Below, piece after piece: positions 17,542 to 18,517 of a DNA stretch of 50,796 bases. A program made the translations under genes and the position numbers. The stretch spans positions 1-50,796 of the forward strand of contig JALOQJ010000012.1 of the NCBI GenBank assembly GCA_025453445.1, given 5' to 3'. Position 1 is the stretch's first letter. Every line of letters begins with the position of its first letter. The notes under the pieces are model-generated. The model was not told where the DNA came from and made no database searches. It worked only from the letters and a program-made list of their open reading frames with translations. The DNA is from Candidatus Omnitrophota bacterium. Lineage in GTDB: Bacteria > Omnitrophota > Gorgyraeia > Gygaellales > Profunditerraquicolaceae.

Positions 17542-17853
17542 TTACAGGTTTTCTCTCTCCACTCCGAGGACCTCTTTATCCTCGAAGAGAAATACTGTGC
17601 GATTGATCCTGCCCCGGTCAGGTGCGACGATAAAATAATTATCGCTTTCGAATATCCCGGCTACCGGCGCATGGTTGACCTCGAATATATTGCCATCGAG
17701 TTCTTCTCCGACGCAAATATCAGAGGTAATATATTTCTTGATGCGGCTGTTAAAAGTTCGGACGCTGATTTTTTTGATCTTGGTATCCTTCAAGTGCCAG
17801 CCGGTTGTTTCTTCGGCAAACCTCTTAAAGGCCTCCCTCATCTTTTCATCCAT
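17542..17853 (-). CDS. Hypothetical protein behind an attenuator-like leader
   Basis: The 103-aa protein (MDEKMREAFKRFAEETTGWH...) is soluble and has no motif I recognise; its C-terminal half is beta-rich by eye (NYFIVAPDRGRINRTVFLFED). I chose the ATG at 17853 because AAGGAGGGCGGG lies just upstream; the frame remains open to 17886 but would start inside the terminator tail. The gene can be transcribed only by reading through a strong terminator-like hairpin, since just 24 nt separate that hairpin from the start codon. Neighbours are a PilZ protein upstream and the HTH-smc unit downstream. No function is proposed. Confidence 0.7.
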   Translation of the reverse strand: MDEKMREAFKRFAEETTGWHLKDTKIKKISVRTFNSRIKKYITSDICVGEELDGNIFEVNHAPVAGIFESDNYFIVAPDRGRINRTVFLFEDKEVLGVERENL

Positions 17854-17876
17854 CCCGCCCTCCTTTTTTGAAAATA

Positions 17877-17911
17877 AAAAAAGCAACTCTCCGTAGTAGA
17901 AAGTTGCTTTT
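17877..17911 (-). terminator. Intrinsic terminator/attenuator in the leader of the 17.5 kb gene
   Basis: On the minus strand AAAAGCAACTTTC and GGAGAGTTGCTTTT pair into a stem of about 13 bp (one G-U) with a 6-7 nt loop, followed by a run of seven T. Position between promoter and start codon makes it either the end of a short RNA or a regulated attenuator. Confidence 0.8.
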
Positions 17912-17967
17912 AGTTGATCTTTGCGAATCTCTTCAATTTACCACCCCCTGTAATAGGTGATGGCTTA

Positions 17968-17995
17968 ATTATAGTATTACTTGTAATTATTGCAA
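17968..17995 (-). promoter_or_regulatory. Promoter for the leader upstream of the 17.5 kb gene
   Basis: TTGCAA (17995-17990), 16-nt spacer and a perfect -10 TATAAT (17973-17968) on the minus strand. Transcription would begin near 17961, yielding about 85 nt of RNA up to the terminator hairpin at 17911-17877. Confidence 0.6.
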
Positions 17996-18013: not shown

Positions 18014-18517
18014 TTAGCTATTCAACAAGTAGTAAAAAGTCTCGATTTTTTTCCGGCTTTGCTCGTCAAATTTAATTAATAATTCGAATTCTTGAGAATT
18101 ATTTTTTCGCGGCCAAACCCGGGATATTTTTCCATCAAAGATTATCCCGCTTTTATTATCCGTATTAAACGACCATTGCAAAGTGACTTCGACCTCCGGA
18201 TGTAAAGATTCTTTGGCTATACATAATAATCCCAATGAACTGATATCAATCGTGCGCACAATAATAGTTTTATTTTCATAAGTCAGAGCAACATAGCTTT
18301 CGAACTCAAAGCGCCGGAATTTCCTATTTTCAATGAAGACGTTTTTATCAATTTTAGCGCAGGCAACTTCCCATTGCCTGCCGTATTTGGCAACCCAATC
18401 AATTGCCGCTGTGCCAAAGCCGATTTCATAGCCCGCTTTTTCACTTTCTATCCACTGATGCTTCCTGATTTCCGCAATGGAACGCGGATCCCTCAAATAT
18501 GGATATGACCCTTTCAC
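18014..18517 (-). CDS. PilZ domain c-di-GMP receptor
   Basis: The 167-aa protein has an N-terminal region of no recognised type (about residues 1-85) and a C-terminal PilZ domain. Both c-di-GMP-binding motifs are present: the RxxxR motif in NRKFRRFEF and D-x-S-x-x-G in DISSLGL. It should bind c-di-GMP and pass the signal to an unknown partner. The start is GTG at 18517, placed 5 nt after a perfect AGGAGG. The gene has its own near-consensus promoter and may be monocistronic. The GGDEF enzyme at 12.8 kb is the only c-di-GMP synthase in the window. Confidence 0.85.
   Translation of the reverse strand: MKGSYPYLRDPRSIAEIRKHQWIESEKAGYEIGFGTAAIDWVAKYGRQWEVACAKIDKNVFIENRKFRRFEFESYVALTYENKTIIVRTIDISSLGLLCIAKESLHPEVEVTLQWSFNTDNKSGIIFDGKISRVWPRKNNSQEFELLIKFDEQSRKKIETFYYLLNS

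Follow-up and report, generated by a model that had tools for sequence, protein, structure and literature searches.

A recurrent leader element of Omnitrophota, probably an ampC-like attenuator

A leader and terminator before a small gene

The window, as we call the whole stretch of DNA analysed here, covers 50,796 nucleotides from a Candidatus Omnitrophota bacterium. Its minus strand encodes P0001, a protein of 103 residues without a match in Pfam or NCBIfam and with a poor predicted structure (mean pLDDT 60.5). The neighboring genes encode PilZ, HTH and SMC-like proteins. Upstream of P0001 we located the following features.

18014..18517, minus strand: PilZ-domain gene directly upstream (PF07238, E 1.8e-07)
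17990..17995, minus strand: −35 element TTGCAA, from sequence and promoter scan
17968..17973, minus strand: −10 element TATAAT, from sequence and promoter scan; transcription start expected near 17961
17940..17964, minus strand: 5′ hairpin with arms GCCAUCACCU/AGGGGGUGGU, the 3′ arm of which buries the leader Shine–Dalgarno (SD) sequence
17944..17949, minus strand: leader SD AGGGGG, from sequence, at the position of the conserved SD of model R1 (see below)
17910..17936, minus strand: leader ORF with TTG start, eight codons, (M)KRFAKIN, and stop TAA; from sequence, with comparative support
17879..17911, minus strand: intrinsic terminator hairpin, 14 pairs and a loop of 5, with a helix that covaries across matches
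17872..17878, minus strand: T run of the terminator, from sequence
17858..17865, minus strand: SD of the downstream gene, AAGGAGGG, from sequence
17542..17853, minus strand: downstream gene P0001, 103 aa, family of unknown function, from the ORF and homolog searches

The first-pass annotation of this DNA had proposed a promoter with a start near 17961, a leader of about 85 nt that ends in a strong hairpin with a T run, and a following gene too close to leave space for a second promoter. We found each of these elements. The two hexamers of the promoter are separated by 16 nt and agree with a sigma-70-like consensus at 10 of 12 positions. Promoter matches at such a score are not significant alone (6 versus 4.6 ± 2.0 in shuffles, 2 kb), and the assignment is supported by the −35 spacing in the family of related leaders. 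The support beyond chance for the arrangement in the window is comparative, and as judged from sequence it comes from homologs and from recurrence throughout the phylum. Near-perfect sigma-70-like promoters were also seen at 18569-18542 (minus strand, 12/12) before the PilZ gene, and at 17439-17411 (minus strand, 11/12) before the HTH gene.

The 88-nt leader RNA folds with −28.6 kcal/mol (z = −5.3), a value equaled by none of 200 shuffles. Because the SD and the ATG (17853) of P0001 come about 22 nt after the T run, there is no space for another promoter behind the terminator. Transcripts of the PilZ gene, if any, would run into the same terminator. A generic terminator scan found few strong terminators in the window. 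One of them, a perfect 14-pair hairpin at 30459-30420 (minus strand) between two genes, is apparently an ordinary gene end.

The annotation had overlooked the short ORF (17936-17910) with its own SD. This frame reads TTG-AAG-AGA-TTC-GCA-AAG-ATC-AAC-TAA. TTG is a weak start codon, and folding of the leader leaves the SD with a mean unpaired probability of only 0.19. The TAA abuts the terminator stem at its base: the stop ends at 17910, and the GC-containing core of the hairpin (GCAACTTTC..GAGAGTTGC) begins at 17907.

Homologs of P0001 and recurrence of the leader

Of 107 other genomes in the host's family, 6 encode a homolog of P0001. A profile search of a phylum sample found the protein in 6 of 384 genomes, of which five belong to the host's family (the host included) and one, a weaker match, lies elsewhere in the class. 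All six homologs keep the arrangement, so that a promoter-like site, a leader, an SD-preceded short ORF and a terminator stand upstream of all seven P0001-family genes. The leader peptides of these orthologs differ (MKRFAKIN, MRILKDFR, MRVQKRKI, MKKPIINEIHKAIL), and the terminator-to-gene distance also varies. In five of the seven leaders a stem buries the SD (unpaired probability 0.14-0.38); the other two have values of 0.54 and 0.73. In L011, L013 and L015 the ORF upstream of the P0001 ortholog is one that we take to be etfA. In L017 another such leader precedes a gene that is presumably mscS.

The element recurs far beyond the P0001 family. A terminator-type pattern, GCAAYYYYY..RRRRRTTGCYTTTTT, matched 27 of 105 family genomes, usually once each, and its reversed control matched none in the same genomes. 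By eye, most of the matching places resemble leaders, not gene ends. From an alignment of 18 leaders we then built the model R1; its seed was picked via the terminator, which makes the conservation of the terminator sequence partly circular. R1 matched 61 of 108 genomes of the host's family at E ≤ 0.05 and 44 of 108 at E ≤ 1e-4, with E-values that are rough and per genome, some chance genome matches expected at 0.05, and counts at E ≤ 1e-4 tallied by hand from the match tables. In the phylum sample R1 matched 88 of 285 genomes, and 16 genomes outside the family at E ≤ 1e-4. The L015 leader (G026), which was absent from the seed, was recovered at E 2.4e-7. In G107 (L010) the arrangement is present by eye, yet it is not among the R1 matches. 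The host genome carries one strong copy. The best R1 match in 50 kb of phage T4 scored 18.1 bits versus 63.2 for the window, and a search of viral contigs with the consensus pattern gave no match.

A covariance search of the window leader against Rfam returned no family at the gathering score; the 27 matches at E ≤ 10 all fall far below it. The leaders of the best relatives have no overlapping Rfam match either. As far as the searches of the window and its relatives reach, the element is matched by no family of Rfam 15.

We aligned 118 R1 matches and analysed 102. The 16 that were dropped comprise the two matches in L156, a weak second match in L092 and, for the rest, matches to the same hairpins that are partial or on the opposite strand; L143, with two more hits, was left out of the aligned set. 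The common core runs from a −10 box through a small hairpin with AAAGGAG or AAAGAGG to ATG RGG TTT AAA TAG and an A/T-rich linker, followed by GGCAACTCTC-TAAAA-GGGGGTTGCC, a T run and the gene. A weak AU helix in the linker is a candidate from the consensus alone. A −35-like hexamer (at least 4/6) is found at a spacing of 15–19 nt in 61% of the 89 usable hits (of 102), versus 11–29% at other spacings.

These leaders are linked to gene starts. An SD-preceded ORF follows within 200 nt at 73 of the 102 hits, within 60 nt at 50 and within 30 nt at 35, as counted by one script, and 29 hits have no such ORF within 200 nt. A second script placed an SD-preceded ORF on the same strand within 60 nt at 51 of 102 hits, versus 4 of 28 among the remaining terminators of these stretches. 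The first-pass annotation had offered, among its options, an attenuator that must be read through for the gene to be expressed, and this option is well supported. The downstream proteins are diverse. A Pfam scan of 60 of them listed 25 families, among them PEGA (4/60), PAS, peptide methionine sulfoxide reductase, carbamoyl-phosphate synthase, GGDEF, class 3 lipase, LpoB, Cas3-HD and ORF6N; many proteins had no family. Directly after two of the terminators (L011, about 1390-1450, and L039) we noted tiny Cys/Lys peptides, MCKSCGCSPKKKAKKKKKK and MCKTCAAHKAKPKKKKKK.

Reading frame and RNA structure of the leaders

The comparative evidence says that the leader ORF is translated, on the grounds of start-codon exchange, avoidance of early stops, the position of the stop and in-frame fusions. 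Among the 85 rows that were not part of the seed, the start column holds ATG in 55, GTG in 8, TTG in 8, another triplet in 12 and gaps in 2. Over all 101 aligned rows with letters, 14 have no start codon at this column. For the 86 rows with a start codon we shuffled the letters between start and stem 1000 times. Stops in codons 2–4 occur in 4 of 86 rows versus 25.7 ± 4.2 in the shuffles (minimum 14). Frames of exactly four codons occur in 31 of 86 rows versus an expected 6.7 ± 2.4 (maximum 17), and they end on TAG (20), TAA (10) or TGA (1). Rows outside the seed behave in the same way, with early stops in 4 of 71 (21.3 expected) and four codons in 24 of 71 (5.6 expected).

In 86 of 86 rows the stop falls within the last 18 nt ahead of the stem, inside it or past it. 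In the four-codon form it is mostly found 9–12 nt before the stem. The frame passes beyond the terminator in 12 of 86 rows. In L101, L108, L117, L139 and L147 the leader frame is free of stops and extends, without a shift of frame, across the terminator into secreted-type proteins whose N-termini resemble signal peptides, which places the terminator within the signal-peptide region. The products at L101, L108, L117 and L139 (four genomes) and at L147 comprise proteins of 77–104 aa with repeated LEYNxxTGLW and one 465-aa protein. As read from the alignment, signs of this kind indicate that selection acts on a reading frame and not on an aptamer.

Covariation in homologous leaders, which the first-pass annotation had named as a check, is evident in the terminator. 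All 11 of 11 pairs of the helix covary with changes on both sides across the 118 aligned matches; the helix is 95.4% paired, and 108 cells have both sides changed versus 35.4 in shuffles. The arms of the SD hairpin also match each other. Strong stems form in 40% of cases with the leader's own partner versus 23.5% with permuted partners, a result reached in 0 of 5000 permutations (10 of 5000 for the mean score), under a definition of the arms that was picked after the result of a first test. That earlier test, which did not include the final letters of the SD, gave a weaker result (20 of 2000 permutations for the mean score and 52 of 2000 for strong stems). Both were confined to hits in which the SD is clear (65 of 102). 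In most leaders outside the P0001 family the SD is accessible, with a median unpaired probability of 0.755 (n = 62), though only 26 of these 62 usable hits show it as a clean hairpin loop. Comparison among these genomes has shown the parts of the leader, their recurrence, selection on the start codon, on the absence of early stops and on the position of the stop, and two covarying elements, the terminator and the SD hairpin.

A classical antiterminator is not evident in these leaders. Pairing of the upstream region with the 5′ arm of the terminator yields −4.84 kcal/mol versus −5.00 kcal/mol for permuted partners, and 182 of 200 permutations are as good. We also rejected an antiterminator or pseudoknot in which the SD loop or the leader ORF pairs with the 5′ arm: over the three regions 182, 155 and 100 of 200 permutations were as good.

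A ribosome as the probable switch

The reading that we favor, and consider rather probable, is that the leader acts in cis as a translation-gated transcription attenuator, in which a ribosome on the tiny ORF would keep the terminator from forming. RNA polymerase would start at the leader promoter and by default end at the hairpin about 85 nt on. A ribosome that binds at the leader SD and translates the ORF early enough would, on reaching the stop codon, cover or abut the 5′ arm of the terminator. The hairpin could then not close, and the polymerase would read through into the gene. In this way, gene output would report how easily a ribosome can start on the leader, be it through the supply of free ribosomes, through growth or through opening of the SD hairpin. 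From this arrangement we infer that the hairpin is blocked by the ribosome and that the signal is translation capacity. In the window the default state is probably OFF because the leader SD is buried in a hairpin, and P0001 is probably transcribed only while a ribosome is busy on the tiny frame.

Given such short leaders, ribosome loading and the polymerase should be in a race that determines readthrough, and a device built on such a race would sense initiation capacity. The same shortness would demand very rapid loading of the ribosome or a pause of the polymerase. In the commonest form, with the stop 9–12 nt ahead of the stem, the ribosome would merely abut the stem. Passages of PMC4824070 report that an E. 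coli terminator which follows a stop codon by a few bp is almost silent, since the terminating ribosome covers about 10 nt past the A site. One series described there has termination of about 0.12 at 17 bp and full termination only beyond 30 bp, and another has 0.8 at 18 bp, so that the effect depends on sequence (PMC4824070).

The closest known system is the attenuator of E. coli ampC. Jaurin et al. (1981, Nature 290:221) reportedly described it as a ribosome-based mechanism with readthrough that rises with growth rate, and the ampC leader is said to have been proposed as a sensor of initiation capacity. We know of no other single-gene case of such start–stop logic. In the E. coli MG1655 sequence we read the ampC leader as ATG TAA, 4 nt, GGCCCGCC-TAT-GGCGGGCC-GTTTT and the ampC ATG, that is, a promoter-driven minimal frame 4 nt before an intrinsic terminator with the gene start soon after. 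The window has the same layout, with its own promoter, a short leader, an intrinsic terminator and a gene start right after, and its leader start codon and stop come immediately ahead of the terminator. In contrast to ampC, the Omnitrophota frames mostly comprise 4–14 codons and have a clear SD that is often part of a small hairpin, and the element stands at many unrelated genes throughout the phylum. The two share no sequence homology, and R1 has no match in the ampC stretch. The ampC attenuator and its growth-rate result are described in citing passages of PMC3660660 and PMC9241650.

Other attenuators share some of these features. Those of pyrBI and of the trp/his type also have a translated leader ORF before an intrinsic terminator, but the Omnitrophota leaders have no regulatory codons and no detectable antiterminator. 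Their stop-to-stem distance is mostly 9–12 nt or less, whereas the amino-acid attenuators treated in passages of PMC4824070 hold the terminator more than 20 bp from the stop. The uORF attenuators of bmrCD, vmlR and topAI, which sense translation stress, likewise combine a short ORF with premature termination before a gene, as described in parts of PMC4191407, PMC9226507 and PMC12121999; the 25 families that the scan of 60 downstream proteins listed include none for resistance. Classical leader-peptide attenuation exemplifies an opposite or peptide-specific logic, in which a stalling peptide or a ribosome on the leader ORF alters folding so that translation favors termination, or in which a drug or amino acid causes stalling and thereby releases the gene. 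A short translated ORF ahead of a terminator is typical of this class, and selection on the frame is clear. The peptides of orthologs differ, however, by eye they contain no run of one amino acid, and the antiterminator pairing on which such switches rely did not stand out from permutations. We consider this logic unlikely here. Less likely still is a trans-acting small RNA of about 85 nt that lies ahead of the gene by chance. The first-pass annotation had allowed for a small RNA, and the promoter and terminator of its own, the strong fold and the conserved core fit that option. But the linkage to gene starts, which is much rarer at other terminators, points to action in cis; conservation falls on SD, start, frame and stop, and this genome has one strong copy.

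An ordinary 3′ terminator of the PilZ gene that leaks into P0001, next to a chance promoter and ORF, appears equally improbable. PilZ ends at 18014, about 100 nt ahead of the hairpin, and promoter-like matches are common by chance, but the same arrangement stands before P0001 orthologs with a different upstream gene (L011, L013 and L015) and before unrelated genes, and the ORF statistics are strong. A metabolite riboswitch, be it GEMM or an unlisted class, is the least credible of these explanations and in our view highly improbable. The leader is controlled by a terminator, a PilZ gene is adjacent, and the letters ACAGGG, GCAAAG and CTAAA that had suggested a GEMM c-di-GMP riboswitch to the annotation are indeed present. 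Their identity as GEMM motifs did not hold: no GEMM model is among the Rfam matches even at E ≤ 10, and GCAAAG and CTAAA are codons and the stop of the short reading frame. The riboswitch reading as a whole also fails for want of an alternative antiterminator pairing and of a conserved aptamer, the conserved columns being SD, start codon, stop and terminator, and the downstream genes are unrelated.

We conclude that the window holds a member of a recurrent Omnitrophota family without an Rfam match, and that this family is best understood, on comparative grounds, as an ampC-like attenuator. Literature searches listed no paper on such leaders in Omnitrophota. A broader proposal, which we offer tentatively and would not yet call probable, is that one portable cassette of promoter, SD hairpin, four-codon minigene and terminator may serve as a phylum-wide sensor of free ribosomes for many unrelated, often envelope-type genes. 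The subclass with a buried SD may add a second gate, and the signal peptides of some genes may have taken up the cassette. If the attenuator reading is true, readthrough gated by a minigene would be a general regulatory device that recurs in a large, mostly uncultured phylum, and the element would mark translation-coupled genes in genomes for which there are no genetics.
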